Source: Sphingomonadales bacterium
Lineage (GTDB): Bacteria > Bacteroidota > Bacteroidia > Flavobacteriales_D > Crocinitomicaceae
Assembly (NCBI GenBank): GCA_016872115.1
Contig: VHBC01000004.1
Span: 1-64,000 of the forward strand
Direction of reading: 5' to 3'
DNA: 64,000 bases
In this document: positions 46,130-57,914 of the stretch, piece by piece
Numbering within the stretch: position 1 is the stretch's first letter
How the letters are laid out: each line of letters starts with the position of its first letter
Notes under the pieces: model-generated
What the model saw: the letters and a program-made list of their open reading frames with translations, nothing else
Told to the model about the DNA's origin: nothing
Database searches by the model: none
Position numbers and translations under genes: made by a program

Positions 46130-47218
46130 CTAATCTTTATATTCTGGAAATAAAGAAAGAATCCCTGCTTCTGAGGCCGCACAAACCCCTCTTTCTGTTA
46201 TCAGGCCTGTAACCAAGCGCGCAGGTGTGACATCAAAACCATAGTTGGCAGCAGGCGTTGTTTCTGGGCAAATCAAGACAGGCTCAATTTTCCCTGTGGC
46301 CGATTTGCCTATGACGTATTTGACCTCGTTTTGCTCGCGTTGCTCGATTGGAATCTCGGTCAGGCCGTCTTTAATGGTCATGTCGAGGGTAGTGGAGGGC
46401 AGTGCCACATAAAAGGGAATGTTATTGTCTTTGGCTGCTAAAGCTTTGAGGTAAGTACCAATTTTGTTGGCGACATCGCCATTGCGTGTGGTGCGGTCGG
46501 TGCCAACAATAACAATATCCACCATGTTGTGTTGCATGAGGTGACCGCCGGTGTTGTCCACGATGAGTGTGTGCTCAACACCATGACGCGTAAGTTCATA
46601 GGCGGTGAGGTTGGCTCCTTGGTTGCGGGGGCGGGTTTCATCAACCCATACGTGCACTTTGATGCCTTTTTGAACGGCTTGGTAAATTGGTGAAGTAATG
46701 GTTCCCCACTGAATACAACCTAACATGCCGGCGTTGCAATGTGTTAAAATATGAACGGGTTCTCCCTTTTTTTGGGCAGCAATGGCTTCGATCAATGGCA
46801 AGCCATGTACGCCAATGAGGCGACAGGTTTCGATATCGGCCTCGACAATTTGCTCGGCTTCTTGCCATGCAGCCTCTAAAAAGTCAGTGGCGTTGTCTAG
46901 GGCGGCACGCATGCGATCGAGGGCCCAAAAAAGATTGACCGCAGTGGGTCTGGAAGCGCGCAATGTACTGAAAGCCTCATCTAAGAAAGAGTCGTCGTGC
47001 CCGTGGTTGATCATTTCTTTGACCGCTAAAAAAATACCGTAAGCAGCTGTTGCCCCAATGAGAGGCGCTCCGCGTACAGTCATATTTCGGATGGCTAAAT
47101 CGGCATCTTTGTATGTTTTTAAAGTGACCACAACGAATTCATGCGGAAGCAACCGTTGGTCAATAATTTCTACATCTTTTTGAGGCGTTGTCCAGATGGT
47201 ACGAAAGGATGGTGACAT
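46130..47218 (-). CDS. mtnA: S-methyl-5-thioribose-1-phosphate isomerase
   Basis: 362 aa. Isomerises 5-methylthioribose 1-phosphate to the ribulose form in methionine salvage. It has the eIF2B-like fold: RNMTVRGAPLIGATAAYGI, catalytic Cys in THCNAGMLGCIQWG, VDETRPRNQGANLTAYEL, and catalytic Asp in VGTDRTTRNGDVANKIGTY. Where relatives have VADRI the sequence is GTDRT, a mild change. It follows metK (SAM synthetase), whose product is the source of methylthioadenosine. A terminator sits in the 49-base gap to metK, so expression probably relies on read-through. Confidence 0.93.
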   Translation of the reverse strand: MSPSFRTIWTTPQKDVEIIDQRLLPHEFVVVTLKTYKDADLAIRNMTVRGAPLIGATAAYGIFLAVKEMINHGHDDSFLDEAFSTLRASRPTAVNLFWALDRMRAALDNATDFLEAAWQEAEQIVEADIETCRLIGVHGLPLIEAIAAQKKGEPVHILTHCNAGMLGCIQWGTITSPIYQAVQKGIKVHVWVDETRPRNQGANLTAYELTRHGVEHTLIVDNTGGHLMQHNMVDIVIVGTDRTTRNGDVANKIGTYLKALAAKDNNIPFYVALPSTTLDMTIKDGLTEIPIEQREQNEVKYVIGKSATGKIEPVLICPETTPAANYGFDVTPARLVTGLITERGVCAASEAGILSLFPEYKD

Positions 47219-47230
47219 AATTTATGGCAA

Positions 47231-47257
47231 TAAAAAAGCCCGCTTAAAACGGGCTTT
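47231..47257 (-). terminator. Terminator or attenuator between metK and mtnA
   Basis: An 8-bp GC-rich stem (AAAGCCCG/CGGGCTTT, 47250-47257 with 47235-47242) with a T-rich run on the minus-strand side. Its end lies 13-16 bases before the mtnA ATG, leaving no space for a separate mtnA promoter downstream. Confidence 0.8.
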
Positions 47258-47267
47258 CTGAGTTTAT

Positions 47268-48524
47268 TTAAAGGCCGAAAGCCGTTTTGACTTGATCTAC
47301 GTAATCTAGTTTTTCCCAAGTGAATAATTCAACTTCTCGACTGACTTTGGTGCCGTCAGGTGCCGTGAAGTGCTTGGTGACCGCTTCATTTTTACGGCCC
47401 ATGTGGCCATAAGCGGCTGTTTCTTGGTAAATGGGGTTACGTAATTTAAGACGTTGCTCGATGAAATACGGACGCATATCGAAAATTTGACCAATTTTTT
47501 GGGCAATGGTGCCGTCGGTAAGGTCTACTTTGGCAGTACCATACGTATTCACGTACAGTCCACAAGGTTCTGCAACGCCAATGGCGTAAGAAACCTGAAC
47601 CAGTACTTCATCACAAAGGCCTGCTGCCACCATATTTTTAGCAATGTGACGAGTAGCATAAGCTGCTGAACGGTCAACTTTTGAAGGATCTTTGCCCGAA
47701 AAAGCACCACCTCCGTGTGCGCCTTTGCCGCCGTAGGTATCTACGATGATTTTGCGACCAGTGAGGCCGGTGTCTCCGTGTGGGCCACCAATTACGAATT
47801 TACCTGTTGGGTTGATATGATAAGTAATGCTGTCGTTGAACAAGGACTGAATGGCTGGGCTCAGTTTGGCCCTTACACGTGGAATGACGATTTCGATAAC
47901 GTCTTTCTTGATTTTGGCAAGCATTTCGGCTTCGGGTGCAAAATCGTCGTGCTGGGTTGAAACCACGATGGTGTCGATGCGCTGCGGAATGTTATCATCT
48001 GAGTACTCAATGGTTACCTGAGACTTTGCGTCTGGTCTTAGATAAGGAATGAGCGCTGCTTCGTTGTTGCGAATCGCCGACATTTCCTCTAGGATTTTGT
48101 GCGCGAGGTCGAGGGCTAAAGGCATGTAGTTGGCCGTTTCTTTGGTGGCATAACCGAACATCATTCCTTGGTCACCAGCGCCTTGGTCTTCTGGGTTAGA
48201 ACGCTCGACTCCTTGATTGATATCGGAAGATTGCTCGTGAATAGCAGATAAAATACCACAAGAGTTGGCATCGAACATGTATTCAGATTTGGTGTAACCT
48301 ATTTGACGGATGGTCTCGCGGGCAATTTTTTGAACGTCGAGGTAGACGGTAGACTTCACTTCGCCGGCCAATACGACCTGACCTGTGGTAACGAGTGTTT
48401 CACAAGCTACCTTAGAGGCAGGGTCAAAAGCCATGAAATTGTCAATCAGGGCGTCTGAGATTTGATCTGAAACTTTATCTGGGTGTCCTTCTGAAACGGA
48501 CTCGGAGGTAAACAAATATGCCAT
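47268..48524 (-). CDS. metK: S-adenosylmethionine synthetase
   Basis: 418 aa. Makes SAM from methionine and ATP. N-terminal [33 protein letters not shown] signature, [21 protein letters not shown], and [19 protein letters not shown] in the C-terminal domain. Length slightly above the common 380-400 as in Bacteroidota. The leader is about 20 bases, so no SAM riboswitch is possible at that spot. Confidence 0.98.
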
Positions 48525-48544
48525 TGAATAATTTGATTAGGGAG

Positions 48545-48552
48545 CAAAGTTA
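48545..48552 (-). promoter_or_regulatory. -7 box of metK
   Basis: TAACTTTG on the minus strand, exact TAnnTTTG match, 20 bases before the metK ATG; it overlaps the stop codon region of the upstream PaaH-like gene (stop at 48550), so metK can be transcribed apart from that operon. Confidence 0.55.
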
Positions 48553-49713
48553 CAAAATAAATTTGCTTTGTTCGTGCGCTTTTCTACGCAGCAAAGCATT
48601 TGGTCTGTAGCGGTCTTCGCCATATTCTGCAAATAGTTTTTCGAGGCGTTCGAGTACCCAACTTGCGCCAAGTTCATCGGCCCAAGCCAATAAACCTTTG
48701 GGGTAGTTGACACCTTTGGTCATGGCCAAATCAATAGCTGCTGGACTGCCTACTTGCATGAGTACTGCATCGGCTGCTTCGTTGATGAGCATCACAAGGA
48801 TGCGTTCAAAAATTTCTTGTCCAAGTACGCTATCTGTGCTTGGTTTTAAAAGCGCGGAGCCTTCAGCATAGTCATAAAAACCACGGCCTGTTTTTCTACC
48901 CAAAAAACCCGCTTCCATATGTCTTTTCTGGGTAAAAGATGGTTTGAAGCGCGGGTCAAAGTAAAAGGCCGCAAAAACGGTTTCTGTGACGGTATAATTG
49001 ATGTCGTTTCCAATGTAATCCATGAGTGTAAAGGGCCCCATTTTAAAGCCGCCCAGTTGGGTCATGGCCCAATCAATTGTTGCAAAATCGGCAATCCCTT
49101 CTTCGTAAATGCGCAACGCCTCGCCGTAAAATGGCCGCGCAACTCTATTGACAATAAATCCAGGGGTGTCTTTGCAGACGACCACAGTTTTGTGCCATCC
49201 GTTAATAAGTCCCTCAATTTGTGCAGTGCATGTTGCTGAGGTCGCTACGCCAGGAATGACCTCAACCAAGGGCATAAGCGTAGCCGGATTAAAGAAATGA
49301 ATACCTAAAAAACGACTAGCATCTTTTAAACAAGCACCAATTGAGGCAATAGATAAAGACGAAGTATTACTTGCTAGTATGCATGTTTGCGAAACAGCTT
49401 GCTCGAGTTGTTCAAATACCTGGTGTTTCACCGCGAGATTTTCTACAATGGCCTCAATCACGAGGTGCGCTTCACTGTGGTCGCTAAGCTGTGTGGAATA
49501 GCTTAAGTTTTGTTGAATTGTTGCGGCGTTCTCTGCAGTGACTTTACCTTTTTGAACCAGCTTTTCTAAGCTAGAATTGATTTGTTGTTCAGCTCTTAGA
49601 AGCTGATCTGGATTGGTATCGGTCAAGACCACACGATGTCCTGCTTGGGCGGCTACTTGCGCTATGCCAGCTCCCATGGTACCGGCACCAACTACGCCAA
49701 TGATGTGTTTCAT
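48550..49713 (-). CDS. 3-hydroxyacyl-CoA dehydrogenase (PaaH-like)
   Basis: 387 aa. NAD-binding Rossmann motif GVVGAGTMGAGIAQVAAQAG, then SNTSSLSIASIGA, FLGIHFFNPATLMPLVEVI (catalytic His) and the 3HCDH C-terminal domain (VVVCKDTPGFIVNRVARPF). The extra C-terminal portion (about residues 295-387) is a second 3HCDH-type helical domain, as in PaaH and FadN-type proteins. Oxidises 3-hydroxyacyl-CoA to 3-oxoacyl-CoA. Directly follows the PaaG-like gene (1 base), so both act in one beta-oxidation-like branch. Confidence 0.9.
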   Translation of the reverse strand: MKHIIGVVGAGTMGAGIAQVAAQAGHRVVLTDTNPDQLLRAEQQINSSLEKLVQKGKVTAENAATIQQNLSYSTQLSDHSEAHLVIEAIVENLAVKHQVFEQLEQAVSQTCILASNTSSLSIASIGACLKDASRFLGIHFFNPATLMPLVEVIPGVATSATCTAQIEGLINGWHKTVVVCKDTPGFIVNRVARPFYGEALRIYEEGIADFATIDWAMTQLGGFKMGPFTLMDYIGNDINYTVTETVFAAFYFDPRFKPSFTQKRHMEAGFLGRKTGRGFYDYAEGSALLKPSTDSVLGQEIFERILVMLINEAADAVLMQVGSPAAIDLAMTKGVNYPKGLLAWADELGASWVLERLEKLFAEYGEDRYRPNALLRRKAHEQSKFIL

Positions 49714-49714
49714 A

Positions 49715-50491
49715 TTAGTTTCCTTTGAATTCGGGTTTTCTTTTCTCTAAAAATGCGGCTACGCCTTCTTTGAAGTCATGTGTTTGACCCGCTTGTGTTT
49801 GCAATTGCTCTTCAAGTTCAAGTTGTTTGTCAAGCGTATTAAACAAGGCAGCGTTGACCGCTTTTTTGGTGAGGCCAAATCCTGTTGTCGGCATTTGGGC
49901 TAGTTGCCCTGCGAGTTGATCGACATAACTTTCAAATGTTTCGTCGGCAATTGCTTTGTAGATCATGTTCATTTTTTCTGCATCCGCAGCGCTGACTTTC
50001 TCAGCGGTGAGCATGAGCGCCAAAGCTTTTTGAACACCGACGAGTCGAGGTAGCATGAAGGTACCTCCTGAGTCTGGAATGAGTCCGATTTTAGAAAAGG
50101 CTTGAATGAAAGAAGCACTTTCTTTGGCGACAACGATATCGCAGGCCAAAGCAATGTTGGCTCCGGCCCCTGCCGCAACGCCGTTAACGGCAGCAATGAC
50201 TGGTTTTTCTAAATGGCGCAATTTGAGTATAATCGGGTTGTAGTGTTCTGCAACGATTTGTTGCAGCGCAGGGCCTTCCGGATCGGTTGCCTCGGCCAAA
50301 TCCTGGCCAGCACAAAAGGCTTTGCCTTCACCGGTGAGCACAACAACTCTAATTGCTGCATCTGTTGCGCAGCGGTCGAGTTCGTTCTGAAGTTGCAGTG
50401 CCATAGTGCGGTTGAACGAATTGAATACATCGGGTCTGTTGAGCGATAGGGTCAGGATCCCATTTTCAAATTGAGAACGAATTTCTTGCAT
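49715..50491 (-). CDS. Enoyl-CoA hydratase/isomerase (PaaG-like)
   Basis: 258 aa crotonase. Motifs: LNRPDVFNSFN, GEGKAFCAGQDLAEA, oxyanion AAVNGVAAGAGANIALACD and SFIQAFSKIGLIPDSGGTFMLPRLVG; the last is the arrangement of PaaG-type 1,2-epoxyphenylacetyl-CoA isomerase. The catalytic Glu of ordinary hydratases is replaced around LIPDSGG by Asp, as in PaaG, favouring an isomerase role. No paaABCDE ring-oxygenase genes are visible in the window, so participation in phenylacetate breakdown is not proven; general beta-oxidation is possible. Lies 3 bases downstream of the WYL regulator. Confidence 0.9.
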   Translation of the reverse strand: MQEIRSQFENGILTLSLNRPDVFNSFNRTMALQLQNELDRCATDAAIRVVVLTGEGKAFCAGQDLAEATDPEGPALQQIVAEHYNPIILKLRHLEKPVIAAVNGVAAGAGANIALACDIVVAKESASFIQAFSKIGLIPDSGGTFMLPRLVGVQKALALMLTAEKVSAADAEKMNMIYKAIADETFESYVDQLAGQLAQMPTTGFGLTKKAVNAALFNTLDKQLELEEQLQTQAGQTHDFKEGVAAFLEKRKPEFKGN

Positions 50492-50494
50492 AGC

Positions 50495-51502
50495 TTAAGA
50501 TTGATAACGGTTGAGCAGCGCTTGGCCGCGTTCTTTTAAAGTGAGGCGTAAACTTTTGGGTTCCAGGACTTCTAGTTCACCAGCATAACCCAATAAGTTT
50601 CGGATAAATTCTTCGGTAACGAGAATCTGGAGTTCAAAAAGACTGTAGTTCGCGTTTTTTTCCAAGCAAAGTTGAGACGAATGAAAGGGTTGCGTTTCGA
50701 TATAACGTGCGGCAACGGGTTCTGCTTTTAAAACAATACGCAATGGTTCGCCTTTAAAAGCAGTGATGCCCACCGCATTTTTGAAATAATGCTTTGCATC
50801 GAAATCGCTTGGTATTTGGGCTGCTTCGTCTAAAATCTGCAGCTCAGACATGCGGTCAAGCGCGAAAGTCACAATATCTTGCTTCTGCGTATCGTAGGAA
50901 ATCAGGTACCAGCGGTTGCGGTATTCTTTGAGAAATAGTGGGCTAACTTTGCGAGGTTTGGCCTGTTGCTGCTGAAAACTCGTGTATAAAAACCAAACGC
51001 GTTTCTTGGCCTGAATACCTTCGAGAAGTGTCGGTAGGTACTCATTGCCCCCCGTTGAAACAGCTGCTTCGAATTGAATGTAATCCGATAGTTCTTGGGT
51101 TTGATCGCCAACGGCAACGCGGTCTACGATCTTATCGATGGCCAGTCCAAATTGTTGGAAAAAAGGAACTTCCCGAAATTGCTGCAATGTAGAGACCGCA
51201 AAGCGAATAGAGGATAGTTCGTCCTCGGAAAGTGGAACGTCATTGATACTGAAATCAGGAGCTTCGTAAAAATAGCCACCATATTTTTTACTGTAACAAA
51301 TAGGGGCGTCGTGCTCAATTTTCATGGTAAAAAGGTCCTTTTCAATTGTGGATGCACAAATATGTGCGCCGTCCTCAGAGCCAAAAAGTGCCTCTTCGCA
51401 AGCGCTGCGGAGCGCTTCTTTAGATGGATAAGGCTTGTATTTGTTGCGCAACATCCGGTCGATGATGCGGTAGCGAATCAGGGCATTTTTGATATGCGGC
51501 AT
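50495..51502 (-). CDS. WYL-domain transcriptional regulator
   Basis: 335 aa. An N-terminal winged helix (KNALIRYRIIDRMLRNKYKPYPSKEALRSAC) is followed by the WYL domain: KVSPLFLKEYRNRWYLISYDTQKQDIVTFALDRMSEL, then a WCX-like C-terminal part (RIVLKAEPVAARYIETQPFH). WYL proteins sense nucleotides or other small ligands and regulate transcription. The gene overlaps the unknown 471-aa gene by one base and is in the MbnP operon, so it may control the operon. The ligand is unknown. Confidence 0.9.
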   Translation of the reverse strand: MPHIKNALIRYRIIDRMLRNKYKPYPSKEALRSACEEALFGSEDGAHICASTIEKDLFTMKIEHDAPICYSKKYGGYFYEAPDFSINDVPLSEDELSSIRFAVSTLQQFREVPFFQQFGLAIDKIVDRVAVGDQTQELSDYIQFEAAVSTGGNEYLPTLLEGIQAKKRVWFLYTSFQQQQAKPRKVSPLFLKEYRNRWYLISYDTQKQDIVTFALDRMSELQILDEAAQIPSDFDAKHYFKNAVGITAFKGEPLRIVLKAEPVAARYIETQPFHSSQLCLEKNANYSLFELQILVTEEFIRNLLGYAGELEVLEPKSLRLTLKERGQALLNRYQS

Positions 51503-52917
51503 TAGTGCTGGTCAACTTTTTGCTTGTAGCCAAAGAGTTCGAAAAATTTAATGGCTTTGACTACTTCATACGGAACGTCATCTTCCCAACTTTGAACATT
51601 GGCTTTGATTTTGCTGAGCACATCGTCGGAGAGAATGTGTAATAGGCTAGTGTCGTATTCTTTGAGCGATGTGATTTTATCGTTGGCTTGCATGTAATTA
51701 AGTAAGCCAATCATTTTATCTGGTAATTTGATGTTCCCTAAATGATACAAGCTGCCATCTTCAACATTGAGCGCAGGATACACATATAGCTTGACATTAT
51801 GACCAAATCCGCGCCCAAAGGCTTCTAGTAAGCCACCCGGCAGGTTGTCGTAGTATTTTTCCTCAAAAATAATGTGCAGGTTGTAGATCCCCATAATGAC
51901 ACCAAGGAGGTTTCCACGAGCAATGGACGACAAATACTCAAGCATTTTGTAATGCTTGAGATAGTTAGAAACCATGACGGTGTAGCCTAGGGAGCCCAAA
52001 AGCTCTGCGCGGTCAAGGAAGTCTTTGTCCGAAATTTTTCCGTCGGCGGTGAGGTCTTTGAGTGTGAGTTCAAATATAACTTCGAGTTGTTCTGGCTTGA
52101 CCCGTTTCTCTTTGGCAAATGCAGCTCTAGCGCGTTCGATCATGTCGATATGCACTTTGGTTACTGGTCTAAAGCGACCGCGCATCAGTAAGATGTTCTT
52201 CTTGTAAAGCGCTGTAGATGGCTGCAATACGTTCTTGGCTAAGTCGAACATGGTGGCATTGGTGATGCCTCTGCGGACTAAATTGAGTGCGATGATGCGG
52301 TTGTCGATATCCTCGAAATCAGGTCCCGAAATGCGCAACATGTCGATTTCCATTCGGTCTGGCGGCAGGCGATGTACAATGCCATCAATGAAGTCATTTA
52401 TGTTTCCGGATTGAAAATAACACGCATATATTAGATTTACACCCAAGATGCCAAGTGCTTCTTGTTGTGCTTTGTGGCTGTTGTCGTGCATTTTGATGTG
52501 CAAAATGACGTCGTTGGGTTTTGTATTGAGCCCCAGTTGAAAACGGATCCCAACCCAACCCTGACCTTGGTTTGTTTTGTGGTAGTTGAGCGATTCTACG
52601 GTATTACAAAAGGCAAAGAAGCGGGCCTCCCGGTTTTTTACCGGAAGGATATCCTGTAGGTGTTTGAATTCGGTCTGAAGCATGGTGAGCAGGCGCTCTT
52701 CGCAGACATAACGCACCGTTTCTCCGTACATGGAGTCCGAAACCTTCATGTCATAGGCTGATTGCGTGTAGGCAATAGTTCCAGTACTACCACCGGCTTT
52801 AAAGAAATTAGCGGCTACTTCTTGGCCTGCACCTATTTCAGCAAAACAACCATAGATATCTTGGGTAAGATTGATTTTTAATGCTTTGTCTTCTGTTGTT
52901 AAACGACTTGCGCTCAT
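51502..52917 (-). CDS. Conserved unknown protein with degenerate nucleotidylyltransferase-like motif
   Basis: 471 aa soluble protein with no signal peptide. I do not recognise a well-defined family. Residues around 245-262 read LLMRGRFRPVTKVHIDMIE, which resembles the GxFxPxHxGH phosphate-binding motif of nucleotidylyltransferases but with Thr/Lys replacing the first His, so automated calls as nicotinate-nucleotide adenylyltransferase are probably not functional evidence. The rest has large alpha/beta segments (VGIRFQLGLNTKPNDVILHIKMHDNS; RMEIDMLRISGPDFEDIDNRIIALNLVRRGI). It sits directly between the MbnH-like and WYL genes (2-base and 1-base spacing), so it is co-expressed with copper-related proteins. 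Confidence 0.8.
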   Translation of the reverse strand: MSASRLTTEDKALKINLTQDIYGCFAEIGAGQEVAANFFKAGGSTGTIAYTQSAYDMKVSDSMYGETVRYVCEERLLTMLQTEFKHLQDILPVKNREARFFAFCNTVESLNYHKTNQGQGWVGIRFQLGLNTKPNDVILHIKMHDNSHKAQQEALGILGVNLIYACYFQSGNINDFIDGIVHRLPPDRMEIDMLRISGPDFEDIDNRIIALNLVRRGITNATMFDLAKNVLQPSTALYKKNILLMRGRFRPVTKVHIDMIERARAAFAKEKRVKPEQLEVIFELTLKDLTADGKISDKDFLDRAELLGSLGYTVMVSNYLKHYKMLEYLSSIARGNLLGVIMGIYNLHIIFEEKYYDNLPGGLLEAFGRGFGHNVKLYVYPALNVEDGSLYHLGNIKLPDKMIGLLNYMQANDKITSLKEYDTSLLHILSDDVLSKIKANVQSWEDDVPYEVVKAIKFFELFGYKQKVDQH

Positions 52918-52919
52918 GG

Positions 52920-53993
52920 TTAATGTGGGTCTTTGAAAGCAGGGTTTGAAATAAAAGAGTAGTCAGTAAGCGTAAGTAAGAATTTTTTTAGATAAATTTT
53001 TTCTTGCGTATTGAGTTGTACGCCACCTTGATTGGCAAATTCTATTAGTGGGTCGATTGTAGGGGAGAGATGCACACCACTTGAGTAGTGTTCAATGACT
53101 TCGTCGAGGGTTTGAAAACGACCATCGTGCATGTAAGGGGCGCTTAAGGCAATGTTGCGTATGGTCGGCACTTTGAATTTGCCGTTGTCTTCAGGATTGC
53201 CAGTAACAGCTCCCCGACCTAAGTCGCTGAAGTTGGCGTCTAGCCCGTTATTGCTGTATTTTTTAACGCGCATCAGCGGACCGTTGTGACAGTGAAAGCA
53301 GTCAGCACCATTTAGGCTTTTAAAGAGATCATAACCAGCCCATTCCTCCACATCCACAGTTTGGAGGATCGTTTGTTCTTGGGAGGTGAGGGTGATGCCA
53401 TTCTCGTATTTGTACATGACATCGAACTTAGATTCTGCAGAAATCATGGTTCGGATAAATTGTGCTATTGCTTTGGCGACTTTTGTAGAGTCAATACCAG
53501 GTTCGCCAAACGCTCTAAGGAACTGGTTGCGATAATTGATATCGAGATTCAGTTTGTAAACGGCGTCGGTCCAACTTTGGTGCATTTCAATTGGATTGGG
53601 AATTGGCTCAAGAATTTGTTGTTCTAGCGTCGCAGCCCGGCCATCCCAGAAAAAGAATTTATCCCAACCGAGGTTGATCAGTGCCATGGAATTGCGGTTG
53701 CCTGCAATGCCATCAATACCTGTCGAGTATTTGTTTGGGTCTGAGAAACTGCTTGTTGGTAAGTGGCAAGAGGCACAACTCATGGAGTCGTTGCCCGATA
53801 GTCTTTTTTCGTAAAAAAGCCAACGCCCCAGCGCAACGCCTTCTTTAGTCATAGGGTTGTCAGAAGGTATTTCCATGTCGGGAAAATGATTGGGAATGGC
53901 CAATACATAGGGTGTCGGCTGAAAGTTTGCCTTGTCTTTTTTGCAAGCACTCAGTGAAAGAAGTAAAATAAGAAAAACAAAAATACTTTTCAT
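52920..53993 (-). CDS. MbnH/MauG-like dihaem cytochrome c peroxidase-family protein
   Basis: 357 aa lipoprotein (LSLSAC lipobox, Cys17). Two CxxCH haem sites: MSCASCH (Cys73, Cys76, His77) and ADCFHCH (Cys232, Cys235, His236). Supporting motifs are GNRNSMALINLGWDKFFFWDGRA and APYMHDGRFQTLDEVI. Family members are peroxidases or, as in MbnH, oxidase enzymes that convert a Trp of the partner MbnP to kynurenine. The partner here is adjacent: this gene starts one base after the MbnP-like stop. Located on the periplasmic side. Confidence 0.92.
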   Translation of the reverse strand: MKSIFVFLILLLSLSACKKDKANFQPTPYVLAIPNHFPDMEIPSDNPMTKEGVALGRWLFYEKRLSGNDSMSCASCHLPTSSFSDPNKYSTGIDGIAGNRNSMALINLGWDKFFFWDGRAATLEQQILEPIPNPIEMHQSWTDAVYKLNLDINYRNQFLRAFGEPGIDSTKVAKAIAQFIRTMISAESKFDVMYKYENGITLTSQEQTILQTVDVEEWAGYDLFKSLNGADCFHCHNGPLMRVKKYSNNGLDANFSDLGRGAVTGNPEDNGKFKVPTIRNIALSAPYMHDGRFQTLDEVIEHYSSGVHLSPTIDPLIEFANQGGVQLNTQEKIYLKKFLLTLTDYSFISNPAFKDPH

Positions 53994-54731
53994 TTAAAAA
54001 GGACTTATCGCGTTCTTGAAGTTAGTGATTACTTTTTGGGTCAATGCTTCTTGTCCGGCAGCTGTATGGGTCAGGTTTTCTGAATTCAAATTGATGCTGT
54101 TTGCACCCTGACCAAGAAAGGCGAGGAGGTCTAATTTGAGTTTGAACTGGTGTGTGTTGTTGCCTATATTGGTCCAATTGATATTATTGAATTGCAGATT
54201 TTGAAGATAGGTATCTGTGCCAATATGAAAACTAAAAGAGAGATCTGGATTGAGGGTTGCATCCGGGATCGTATCTACTTTTCCTTCGATATTCATGAAA
54301 ATATAACCAGGGTTCCAACCCCAATGCATTGGGCCAGCGTTGGAAATATTCAACGGACTATTATTTGGAAAAGCGCTAGGGTCTAAGTGATTTAGACTAC
54401 TGTCTACGCCTAATACGGCACTTATGTTTGAAAATTTGGTGTAGTCGCCTTCTTTTTTAAAAAGCAGGTTACCGGTTTCACGGTAGTCGAGTAAAGCGGC
54501 TTCATGAAGTGCGTTCGAAACGTTCTTAAATAAAGTAAAATAGCACTTGAGCTCGGTAAATTTAATTTGATACCCCTCTTGAGTGGAATAAATGCTATCC
54601 ATGTAAAAGGTTTGGTTGCCAAAAACGGGTTGCATAGCTACCTGAACATAATTTTTTGGCGTTTCTGGCTTGTCTTTATCGCAAGCAGCTATTGCGAGCA
54701 TAACAAAGACGCATAAAAATAGTATTCTCAT
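53994..54731 (-). CDS. MbnP-like copper-binding lipoprotein
   Basis: 245 aa with lipobox MLAIAACDKD (Cys17). The fold is MbnP-like: QVAMQPVFGNQTFYMDSIY, IKFTELKCYFTLFKNV, and the signature PMHWGWNPGYIFMNIEGK (His136, Trp137, Trp139). In characterised MbnP a Trp is converted to kynurenine by MbnH and the protein binds Cu(I). The Trp pair in this motif is the natural candidate. It heads the operon; a TATTTTTG -7 box ends 4 bases before the ATG. Function in copper acquisition is inferred from family knowledge. Confidence 0.88.
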   Translation of the reverse strand: MRILFLCVFVMLAIAACDKDKPETPKNYVQVAMQPVFGNQTFYMDSIYSTQEGYQIKFTELKCYFTLFKNVSNALHEAALLDYRETGNLLFKKEGDYTKFSNISAVLGVDSSLNHLDPSAFPNNSPLNISNAGPMHWGWNPGYIFMNIEGKVDTIPDATLNPDLSFSFHIGTDTYLQNLQFNNINWTNIGNNTHQFKLKLDLLAFLGQGANSINLNSENLTHTAAGQEALTQKVITNFKNAISPF

Positions 54732-54735
54732 CTAA

Positions 54736-54743
54736 CAAAAATA
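54736..54743 (-). promoter_or_regulatory. -7 box of the MbnP operon
   Basis: TATTTTTG on the minus strand, exact TAnnTTTG match, 4 bases before the ATG at 54731. Confidence 0.5.
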
Positions 54744-54800
54744 CGTCAAAACGCTCAAAATGTTCTTAATTTTAGTAAAAGTTCAGTTCAAAAAATACAC

Positions 54801-57800
54801 ATGTCAATAAACACTGCAAAAGCATTACAAATTTACGCCGCATCTGCTGGCAGTGGAAAAACACATCGTCTTGTATTAGAGTACCTTAAAATACTTCTTT
54901 CCGATTCAAATTACCGCCAAAAATTCAGGCATATTGTGGCCATGACTTTCACCAATAAGGCTGCAAATGAAATGAAGGAGCGCATCCTCCAAACACTAAG
55001 TGGGCTAGCTCATCCGCAAACTGCAAATTCAAAAACTTTAGCTCTCAAGGCGGATCTCTTACAAGAAACCGAGCTTACTGAGCAGCAAATTCAACAACGC
55101 GCAGGTGCTGCACTACAAGGCATCCTTCACCACTATGAAGATTTCCATATCTCTACTATAGACAAATTCAACCTCAGGCTCATTCGTTCGTTTAGTCGAG
55201 ACCTCGATTTACCTGCCGATTTTGAAGTGGTACTCAATGAAAATTTGGTATTCGACGAAGTACTCGATTTATTGATTTCACGCCTTGGTCAACCCGATGC
55301 AGAAGAGCTAACCAAATGGATGCTGGCTTATGCCAAAACAAAAGTAGCCGAAGGTGAGTCATGGGATTTTAAAAAATCTTTATTGCAATTTGCAGAAGTA
55401 CTCAGCAAAGAGCGCAATACAACCGAGGTAGCTCAATTGCTTCAAACCACCTATTCTCGCGAGGCTTATGATTCCTTTAAAGAAAATGCTGCAAGGATCA
55501 AAAACGAATTTTTGACACTTTGCGCAAAGGTCCATGCACAGGCCGCTCCGTTCAAAGGAACGCATTTGAAGACTGCCACTGAACAAAAGCGCATCGATGC
55601 CTTCATCGAAGACAAAAACTGGGGCCTTGGCAAGCAAACAGGGCCGTTTTATGCACCGACTTTTTTAAAAGCGCTTCAGGATAACAAATACGACCTACCC
55701 AGAGCAGTCAACGAGGCCCTGCTTGGCTTGTCGACTGCCTATGAGCAGTCGTTTGCTGCCTATTTGCTTCTTGAAACCCAGCGCAAGAATTTTTACAATA
55801 TGGCCTTATTGCAGAATGTAGCGCAGCAAACCAAGGCCCTCATGAGTGCCCAACAACAAATCCGTATTTCTGAATTCAATCAGCTCATCAGTCAATTGGT
55901 TCAGGGCGAACAAGCCCCTTACGTTTATGAGCGTTTGGGTATTCGTTACGAACATTTCTTACTCGATGAATTTCAGGATACATCGCGCCTACAGTGGATC
56001 AATATGATTCCTTTGCTCTTAGAAGCCATTTCTTATGAAAGGCACAATCTCATTGTAGGAGACGCCAAACAAAGTATTTATCGTTTCAATAACGGCTTGG
56101 CCGAGCAATTCGTGGCACTTCCGCGGTTATACAATCCAGAAAACGACCCTCAAATGGCGCTCACTAGCCGTCGTTTTGAACACAGTGGACACAAAAAAAG
56201 CCTTCAAGATAACTACCGTTCTGCCCCTCAAATCGTTCAGTTCAATAATGCGCTGTTCGAGTGTCTTTCCAAAGAACTTCCTCCACAACAACTTGACTTT
56301 TATGCTGATTTGAAGCAAAATCCACAATCTAAGCACCACGGGTATGTCAGAATCGAATCGCTTGTCAATGACCTTCCTGATGAGCTACTTCACGTCAAAT
56401 TACTACAAACTGTAGCGGAAATCTTAAAAGATGATTACAGGCCTTGTGATATCTGTATACTTACAGAAACCAATAAAAAAGGCAACGCAATTGCGGTGGC
56501 ACTCACACAGGCAGGCATGCAAGTTGTTTCTCAAGATTCATTGTTGCTCTATACACACCCTGTTGTCCAGTTGTTTTTAATTTATCTCAAAAAGAGGGCA
56601 AAACCTGCCAATCCAACACTCGGAAAAAGATTCGCAGAGGCCTATTTGCGTGTCAAGGGTAGGTTCGAGGTGGCGTCTTTTATGACGTTTTTTAAAACTT
56701 ACGAGAAAGAAGGAAAATTGGTAAGGTATTTCGACGAAGCTGCTTTTTTTACGCAAGAATTTGGATCTCCAGAGGCACTTTTTATGCCTTATGAACACCT
56801 TTTTGACCTATTGCAAAAAGCGGCAACTTGTTTTCAGATCAATGAAACGCAAGAACCTTACGTGCATCATTTTTTTGATGTCGCTTTCCAATATCAGCTC
56901 AATCGAAATGCCGAATTGCTGCCCTTCTTGGAATATATCGAACAACACAAAGATAAACTCGCACTCCAGATGCCGGAATCTACTGAGGCCATTCGCATCA
57001 TGACCATACACAAAGCCAAAGGGCTTGAATTTCCGGTTGTACTTATTCCCAGTCTAGATTTTCGAACAGAACTCTTCGGTTACAATAAATTTCTGATGAG
57101 GGCAGGTGAGGGTTTAGCCTATGCCTATCCATCGGATAGCATTCCGGAATTCAAAGTATTCAAAGAAAAAGAGTTGGCTGCGATTTTTCTGGATAAACTC
57201 AATTTGTTGTATGTCGCACTGACCCGGCCTGAACGCCGGTTATATATTTGGAACCACCACAAGAAAAAAGGTTTGGGTGAGCAAATTCATCGTCAAATAA
57301 CAGCTTTAACCTTTCTTGAAACTGATCAAGAGCACGTTTATTTTTATGGTTCACCAACACCACTCTTGCTTTCAAAAGAAGAACAAGCCAAGCGCGCCAC
57401 CACCAAGACCAAGTTTTACCACCCAATGGCGCTATCAAACCAGCTTTGGTATCCTTCTTTGGCTTTTAGAACACCACAACTAGAAATTGCGTCCGATCAA
57501 TTTTTTGGTTTGGCATTTCATCGCGTCCTTTCTTTGTGTCCACAACCCACTGCGCTCCCCGCTGCACTTGCCCAAGCCCTTGAGGAAGGTGCAATGGCCC
57601 AAGATCAAATGCAACAAATTCAAGAAGCAGCAGTGCGCTTTTGGTCTCATGTAGAGGCTCAAAATTTGCATTTAGATATTATTGAGGAATTTAATGAGCA
57701 GCGGATAATAGCCCAGCTCAATCAAATTAAGCAACCCGATAAAGTCTGGCGCAAGGCCAATGAATTGATCGTAATTGACTTCAAAACAGGGCTCAGACAA

Positions 57801-57914
57801 GACCAGCACTTAAAGCAAATTTTACAATACGCTCAATTGCTGCATAAGATTTTTGAATTACCAGTTCGTCCAATCCTTTATTACACCCAACTTGATTTAT
57901 TCTTGGAGCTTTAA
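54801..57914 (+). CDS. AddA-like UvrD helicase with C-terminal nuclease domain
   Basis: 1037 aa. SF1 motifs: Walker A YAASAGSGKTHRLVLEYL at the N-terminus, FTNKAANEMKERI, DEFQDTSRLQW (motif II), VGDAKQSIYRFNNGLAE, DNYRSAPQIVQFNN, and MTIHKAKGLEFPVVLIPS, YVALTRPERRLYIW. The C-terminal PD-(D/E)XK-type motif LIVIDFKTGLRQDQHLKQILQYAQ gives the catalytic D-x-K and QxxxY. It would resect double-strand ends with an AddB-like partner, which is not in the window. The 3' end overlaps the convergent gene by 18 bases. A weak TAATTTTA element lies 27 bases upstream. Confidence 0.93.
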   Translation: MSINTAKALQIYAASAGSGKTHRLVLEYLKILLSDSNYRQKFRHIVAMTFTNKAANEMKERILQTLSGLAHPQTANSKTLALKADLLQETELTEQQIQQRAGAALQGILHHYEDFHISTIDKFNLRLIRSFSRDLDLPADFEVVLNENLVFDEVLDLLISRLGQPDAEELTKWMLAYAKTKVAEGESWDFKKSLLQFAEVLSKERNTTEVAQLLQTTYSREAYDSFKENAARIKNEFLTLCAKVHAQAAPFKGTHLKTATEQKRIDAFIEDKNWGLGKQTGPFYAPTFLKALQDNKYDLPRAVNEALLGLSTAYEQSFAAYLLLETQRKNFYNMALLQNVAQQTKALMSAQQQIRISEFNQLISQLVQGEQAPYVYERLGIRYEHFLLDEFQDTSRLQWINMIPLLLEAISYERHNLIVGDAKQSIYRFNNGLAEQFVALPRLYNPENDPQMALTSRRFEHSGHKKSLQDNYRSAPQIVQFNNALFECLSKELPPQQLDFYADLKQNPQSKHHGYVRIESLVNDLPDELLHVKLLQTVAEILKDDYRPCDICILTETNKKGNAIAVALTQAGMQVVSQDSLLLYTHPVVQLFLIYLKKRAKPANPTLGKRFAEAYLRVKGRFEVASFMTFFKTYEKEGKLVRYFDEAAFFTQEFGSPEALFMPYEHLFDLLQKAATCFQINETQEPYVHHFFDVAFQYQLNRNAELLPFLEYIEQHKDKLALQMPESTEAIRIMTIHKAKGLEFPVVLIPSLDFRTELFGYNKFLMRAGEGLAYAYPSDSIPEFKVFKEKELAAIFLDKLNLLYVALTRPERRLYIWNHHKKKGLGEQIHRQITALTFLETDQEHVYFYGSPTPLLLSKEEQAKRATTKTKFYHPMALSNQLWYPSLAFRTPQLEIASDQFFGLAFHRVLSLCPQPTALPAALAQALEEGAMAQDQMQQIQEAAVRFWSHVEAQNLHLDIIEEFNEQRIIAQLNQIKQPDKVWRKANELIVIDFKTGLRQDQHLKQILQYAQLLHKIFELPVRPILYYTQLDLFLEL

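Follow-up and report, generated by a model that had tools for sequence, protein, structure and literature searches.

The window analysed here, a stretch of 64,000 nucleotides from a member of the Crocinitomicaceae, carries a pair of adjoining genes that encode an MbnP-fold lipoprotein of 245 amino acids (53994..54731, minus strand) and a di-haem MauG/MbnH-type lipoprotein of 357 amino acids (52920..53993, minus strand). The stop codon of MbnP (53994-53996) is directly followed by the ATG of MbnH (53991-53993), leaving a gap of 0 nt, and retranslation places the codons of the M-H-W-G-W motif of MbnP (residues 135-139) at 54315..54329 on the same strand. Four genes lie 3' of MbnH with gaps of -1 to 3 nt. 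In order, they encode a 471-amino acid protein (51502..52917, minus strand), a WYL/WCX-domain regulator (50495..51502, minus strand; PF13280, E 1.9e-18 and PF25583, E 3.5e-9), a PaaG-like and a PaaH-like enzyme. Upstream of MbnP is a divergent gene for a RecB/AddA-like helicase (54801..57914, plus strand; UvrD-helicase, E 4e-30), which served as a synteny control. A first-pass annotation of this DNA had given the coordinates, strand and residue numbering of the pair (MbnP of 245 residues with H136-W137-G138-W139, MbnH of 357 residues) exactly, and had the lack of a gap between the two genes and the order of the four downstream genes right as well. It is plausible that the pair and the downstream genes share one transcript. 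A scan of positions 47000-55200 returned 11 promoter-like sites against 11.8 expected, with models that omit Bacteroidota promoter types, and 17 terminator-like sites against 9.2 expected.

In a Pfam profile search, the window MbnP matches PF20243 with 79.9 bits (cut-off 27; E 2.9e-22). It scores 35.9 bits against the equivalog TIGR04052, below the cut-off of 140, as do four other Bacteroidota MbnPs (37.8-49.1 bits). Its N-terminus, like that of MbnH, looks by eye like a lipobox ending in Cys17, and the precursor contains three Cys, the lipobox Cys among them. A search of the PDB with the single MbnP sequence gave chance-like matches only. An AlphaFold2 model built from a 44-row alignment has a mean pLDDT of 94.4, and in a Foldseek comparison of this model with the PDB the top places are taken by six chains of 7l6g (E 5e-8 to 4.6e-7; next best 0.17), deposited as 'MbnP from Methylosinus trichosporium'. 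VIA-align superimposes the model on 7l6g with a Z score of 16.7, against 4.4 for the next fold, and an rmsd of 2.9 A over 196 residues. Since 7l6g ranks first by both methods, the model indicates that the window protein is a divergent yet genuine MbnP. The deposited name of 7l6g mentions a four-Cys motif, which is lacking in the window MbnP. A profile alignment to 7l6g, weak at E 0.068, sets W137 against the first Trp of its M-A-W-N-W sequence and H169 against its His.

Kynurenine copper proteins have been studied in methanotrophs. There, the characterised MbnH oxidises a Trp of MbnP to kynurenine, and the characterised MbnP is reported to bind Cu(I). The window MbnH belongs to the CCP_MauG family (Pfam, E 1.3e-53). 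Its best NCBIfam model is TIGR04039, 'MbnH family di-heme enzyme', at 247.9 bits (under the cut-off of 362.85), followed by TIGR03791 at 157.9 bits (cut-off 443.85). With scores far under the cut-offs of TIGR04052 and TIGR04039, the pair falls outside the characterised subfamily. The closest solved relative of the enzyme is 6e1c, 'Di-heme enzyme' (E 3.7e-50), which we take to be the MbnH of Methylosinus trichosporium OB3b; solved peroxidases also match, with E values down to 8.1e-39. The two CxxCH haem motifs (C73-C76-H77 and C232-C235-H236), together with W116 and Y303, are invariant in a 23-row alignment. W116 presumably occupies the position of the bridging Trp of MauG/MbnH, and Y303 what we take to be that of the axial Tyr of the MauG-type second haem. 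Y303 aligns with a Tyr of 6e1c, and the ranges of the alignment to MauG (query to 305, MauG chain to 296) would put it opposite residue 294 if the alignment is gap-free. Among 95 class-level MbnH-like sequences, some of them cut off at locus or contig ends, both haem motifs are found in 91, a Tyr at 303 in 85 and a Trp at 116 in 74, the latter being absent in 21. The first-pass description of an MbnP-like lipoprotein followed by a di-haem MauG/MbnH-type protein is thus borne out by PF20243, CCP_MauG and the fold match to 7l6g.

The association of the two genes extends well beyond this locus. At E <= 0.001, the host genome contains two genes each of the PF20243 and CCP_MauG families, which are paired one to one, so that their adjacency exceeds what chance would give. 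Matches to PF20243 that pass its cut-off occur in 137 of 150 genomes sampled from the host's order, in up to 6 copies, and in 48 of 70 sampled from the class. MbnH adjoins MbnP in 56 of 60 order-level loci, a set biased to high-scoring matches; of the four misses, L136 and L149 lie at contig ends, L150 is a wrong-frame open reading frame and L192 lacks both WxW and MbnH. At class level, where the set was not selected by score, an MbnH gene lies no more than 400 bp from MbnP, in the same orientation, in 80 of 105 matches. These are 105 of the 107 matches in the 70 genomes; one match cut at a contig end and one that is the second half of a split gene were left out. The neighbourhood survey proposed in the first-pass annotation therefore finds the two genes co-conserved. 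The named relatives are metagenome-assembled genomes.

The first-pass annotation had also remarked on the lack of methanobactin genes. As to MbnB, this holds, as a search with PF05114 (MbnB/TglH/ChrH) found no match in the host genome (stated completeness 99.99%). It is no surprise, however: with PF20243 in 137 of the 150 order-level genomes, and with the pair described as conserved far beyond methanobactin producers in the available part of a 2013 paper (PMC3621798), a pair lacking methanobactin genes is ordinary. Among the papers listed in a literature search of mostly open-access journals, none dealt with MbnP-MbnH in Bacteroidota.

W137, the first Trp of the WxW in the motif M135-H136-W137-G138-W139, is the predicted site of kynurenine formation. 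It is invariant across the 44-row MbnP alignment. Residue counts were taken from 104 usable class-level rows, one contig-end row having been dropped. In 86 MbnPs the locus also contains an MbnH; of these, the first Trp is present in 86, the second Trp in 70, H169 in 80, M135 in 74 and H136 in 23. Among the 18 without MbnH in the fetched flank, a Trp stands at the first column in 17, and the second Trp, H169 and M135 are each found in 12; in three of the 17 rows with that Trp (L301, L305 and L306) it directly follows Met. The counts show no association between the first Trp and the presence of MbnH (86/86 vs 17/18; Fisher p 0.17). The constancy of the first Trp is as expected for an oxidised residue, but since it is usual without a visible MbnH too, it supports rather than proves a role as the oxidation target. 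As both the first Trp and H169 are often kept in the absence of MbnH, neither residue marks linkage to MbnH specifically. The first-pass emphasis on an HWGW motif was misplaced: position 136 varies, so that HWGW fails as a family signature, and His136 is a sub-lineage trait, whereas the first Trp is the constant feature.

Twelve MbnPs (L267, L270, L272, L275, L280, L284, L289, L290, L297, L300, L302 and L311) have M-x-W-P-[DEQT] instead of MxWxW and have lost the second Trp; each of the twelve has a same-strand MbnH match at most 400 bp away.

The candidate metal ligands of the window MbnP are H169, M135, H115 and H136. H169, although absent in six of the 86 MbnH-linked proteins, is commoner with MbnH than without it (80/86 vs 12/18; Fisher p 0.0057). 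Five of the six losses among the MbnH-less rows belong to one clade (SH-aLRT 100), however, and the association is therefore close to a single event. H115, in an NHxDP sequence, and H136 covary: of 105 sequences, 21 have both, 74 have neither and 5 and 5 have one or the other (Fisher p 5e-13, uncorrected for descent). On a quick tree of 104 rows, which has weak branches and was built with the trait columns left in, the H115/H136 label is clustered, requiring 8 changes against 19.4 when shuffled. The covariation may thus mostly reflect lineage. All 21 sequences with both His fall in one half of this tree, where the window MbnP and the sequence from the same genus sit together on a long branch (1.65).

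The clade just mentioned (L301, L305, L306, L312 and L314; SH-aLRT 100), in which no MbnH is found in the fetched flank, has Lys or Gln in place of H169 in all five members. The Trp directly follows Met in four of them; L314 has a displaced second Trp.

The window pair resembles the MbnP-MbnH pair of OB3b in the fold of MbnP (Z 16.7), in the adjoining di-haem MauG-like enzyme and in the presence of an MxWxW motif followed by an HxG His. It differs from it in that the host genome lacks an MbnB homologue, both window proteins score under the equivalog cut-offs, and the window MbnP is a lipoprotein without the four-Cys motif. It also has the central His of MHW and the His of NHxDP, both of which occur in a subset of Bacteroidia homologues as well. 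Another parallel, reflected in the second-ranking TIGR03791 match, is provided by MauG and methylamine dehydrogenase, a di-haem enzyme there oxidising a Trp of a partner protein. That partner is an enzyme. The product of MauG is a Trp cross-link (TTQ) rather than kynurenine, according to the available portion of PMC3912023.

A parallel in function also exists with CorA-CorB and MopE-SACCP, where a kynurenine-bearing Cu(I) protein is encoded beside a di-haem peroxidase-like gene (available parts of PMC3912023 and PMC3621798). The sequence of MbnP is described as not markedly similar to MopE or CorA (PMC3621798, in the part available), and neither appears among the MbnP sequence and fold matches listed, which excludes no relationship. 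The copper site of CorA comprises two His, a water and a kynurenine, the last, at 2.9 A, being a second-sphere ligand; in Methylomicrobium alcaliphilum, knock-out of the di-haem partner was suggested to leave the CorA homologue still copper-bound (both from the available portion of PMC3912023). Together, the second-sphere position of the kynurenine and the knock-out result argue against a simple transfer of the CorA mechanism.

The gene that follows MbnH encodes a protein with no Pfam or NCBIfam match, and none of the comparisons made marks it as a copper protein. Its model (pLDDT 90.1) contains, by Foldseek and VIA, a CinA-C/PncC-like domain at residues ~4-174 (best Z 16.2) and an NMN/NaMN-adenylyltransferase-like domain at residues ~239-465 (best Z 16.7). 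The catalytic motifs of these folds are ESCTGG in CinA-C/PncC and HxGH in NadD/NMNAT; at the corresponding positions of a 27-orthologue alignment, the window protein reads EIGAGQ and TKVH. Thus, while both domains are like those of CinA-C/PncC NMN deamidase and NadD/NMNAT in fold, the catalytic motifs are altered, catalysis is doubtful, and the 471-residue protein may be no active enzyme. Of 198 genomes sampled from the phylum, 36 encode it.

Neighbouring genes give few clues to metal handling. No copper gene is recognised among six scanned neighbours of the window pair; two of the six match no family. Among 123 same-strand neighbours at class level, of up to 700 amino acids and in some cases cut by locus ends, are 10 YHYH proteins, 11 with a T9SS tail, 3 with an HMA domain (all 3 matching CopZ in NCBIfam) and 3 Metal_resist proteins. 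Visible metal context accompanies a minority of pairs, and at the window none is recognised. A copper role at the window locus is predicted from family membership.

It is nevertheless probable, in our view, that MbnH oxidises W137 to kynurenine and so gives rise to a lipid-anchored, Cu(I)-binding MbnP. In the proposed mechanism, both proteins would be exported and probably lipid-anchored. MbnH, as a MauG-type di-haem enzyme, would use H2O2 to oxidise W137, and the modified MbnP would bind one Cu(I) at the cell envelope, probably through H169 and M135, with H115 and H136 perhaps serving as extra ligands in the window lineage. The fold, family membership and adjacency of the pair and the conservation of the target Trp and the haem motifs are observed directly; oxidation of W137 and Cu(I) binding we infer from the characterised homologue and, in so far as the available sources describe them, from CorA and MopE. 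A physiological role in copper handling is our guess. Alternatively, MbnH might be a detoxifying di-haem cytochrome c peroxidase, with MbnP a passive electron donor or accessory whose Trp is left unoxidised. Membership of CCP_MauG and the matches to solved peroxidases (E down to 8.1e-39) fit such a role, which we nonetheless consider unlikely, as 6e1c matches better (E 3.7e-50), 85 of the 95 MbnH-like sequences have the Tyr at 303, each MbnH of the host genome is paired with an MbnP, and the first Trp is present in all 86 linked MbnPs. Modification of the Trp by the pair might also serve something other than copper, such as binding of another metal or formation of a quinone-like redox cofactor. 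MauG makes a Trp-derived cofactor, and the candidate ligand set varies by lineage, H115 and H136 being present or absent. Against this, the fold is that of the deposited MbnP, 7l6g, a reported Cu(I) binder, and a few related loci have HMA (3/123, CopZ being among the NCBIfam matches) or Metal_resist (3/123) neighbours, which makes a non-copper function a distinctly improbable one.

The pair could in principle work with the 471-residue protein, for example by coupling copper status to the metabolism of pyridine nucleotides. The 471-residue gene lies downstream of MbnP, in the same orientation and at most 1.5 kb away, in 43 of the 57 family genomes that contain both genes, and within 3 kb in 3 more. 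The trio is present in 19 of 20 fetched loci of the genus, with gaps of -4 to 9 nt, and in 12 of 20 fetched loci from the rest of the family, which had been picked by the 471-residue gene; it is kept even where RecB (L117), or RecB and WYL (L131), no longer adjoin it. However, the RecB-like gene, on the opposite side of MbnP, is kept in 10 of those 12 non-genus loci with the trio (WYL adjoins the 471-residue gene in 7), and the gap between MbnH and the 471-residue gene widens to 31-192 nt beyond the genus. A close MbnP orthologue (E <= 1e-20) is missing in 35 of 92 family genomes that have the 471-residue gene. Outside the family, no MbnH was found within 1.5 kb of this gene in any of 28 loci, drawn from 34 such genomes with a match. 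In L108, a locus of the genus, the 471-residue gene is gone from between MbnH and WYL by tblastn, while the pair, WYL and the remaining order are kept. The pair and the 471-residue protein are, moreover, predicted by eye to reside in different compartments. Given the synteny that includes the RecB-like gene, the order in L108 and the 0/28 count, adjacency alone does not make the 471-residue, WYL, PaaG and PaaH genes members of a copper system. An operon acting as a functional unit is unproven, and we regard a joint function with the 471-residue protein as very improbable. The 471-residue gene and those after it are neighbours of the pair that may be co-transcribed with it. The first-pass interpretation therefore survives in part: an MbnP-MbnH-type pair with a conserved predicted Trp target (86/86) and co-conserved genes stands, whereas a copper operon that takes in the downstream genes does not. 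What had been called an operon of undescribed composition is a CinA/PncC- and NMN-adenylyltransferase-like protein, a WYL regulator and acyl-CoA enzymes, in an order kept within the family as local synteny that extends to the RecB-like helicase.

If the pair, as we favour, works like its relatives in oxidising W137 and binding Cu(I), protein-bound kynurenine would be a copper-site component widespread in Bacteroidota, beyond the methanotrophs. More broadly and much more tentatively, the MbnP-MbnH kynurenine copper proteins could constitute a near-universal, little-studied and methanobactin-independent system of the order. Such a system would have diversified in its copper site (the covarying NHxDP and MHWxW His pair), in delivery (as a lipoprotein or as T9SS cargo) and in partners (a YHYH protein or two MbnHs), with one copy tied in the window's family to a PncC/NMNAT-like protein; this, on present indications, is a doubtful but possible generalisation. 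The window copy by itself is one ordinary member, and the wider diversity of MbnP-MbnH in Bacteroidota is the more interesting. Natural variants in which the second Trp is lost, the extra His pair is present or the partner enzyme is absent offer material with which to test what the enzyme needs and how copper is ligated.

Further arrangements were seen among the related loci. The second MbnP of the host genome (L173:9184-10155) reads YWGW at the motif, scores above the cut-off of TIGR04183, the T9SS type A sorting domain, and is followed by an MbnH of its own. In 12 of the 60 order-level loci (L145, L155, L159, L161, L162, L164-L169 and L172), one MbnP is followed by two different MbnH-like genes, the second of which is nearer to the window MbnH, most so in L145 (E 2e-125). 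A T9SS-tailed YHYH protein is encoded after MbnH at L138:10679-12037 and L189:10760-12064, both of the GMYW[ST]WQSGYIN-type loci tested for the gene after MbnH, and at several further order-level loci the gene in that place is about as long. At L183:10246-10851 (plus strand), the MbnP-MbnH pair is followed by a gene for a PnuC-type NMN transporter (PF04973); that a neighbour related to pyridine nucleotides turns up here for a second time, after the 471-residue protein, is probably a coincidence.
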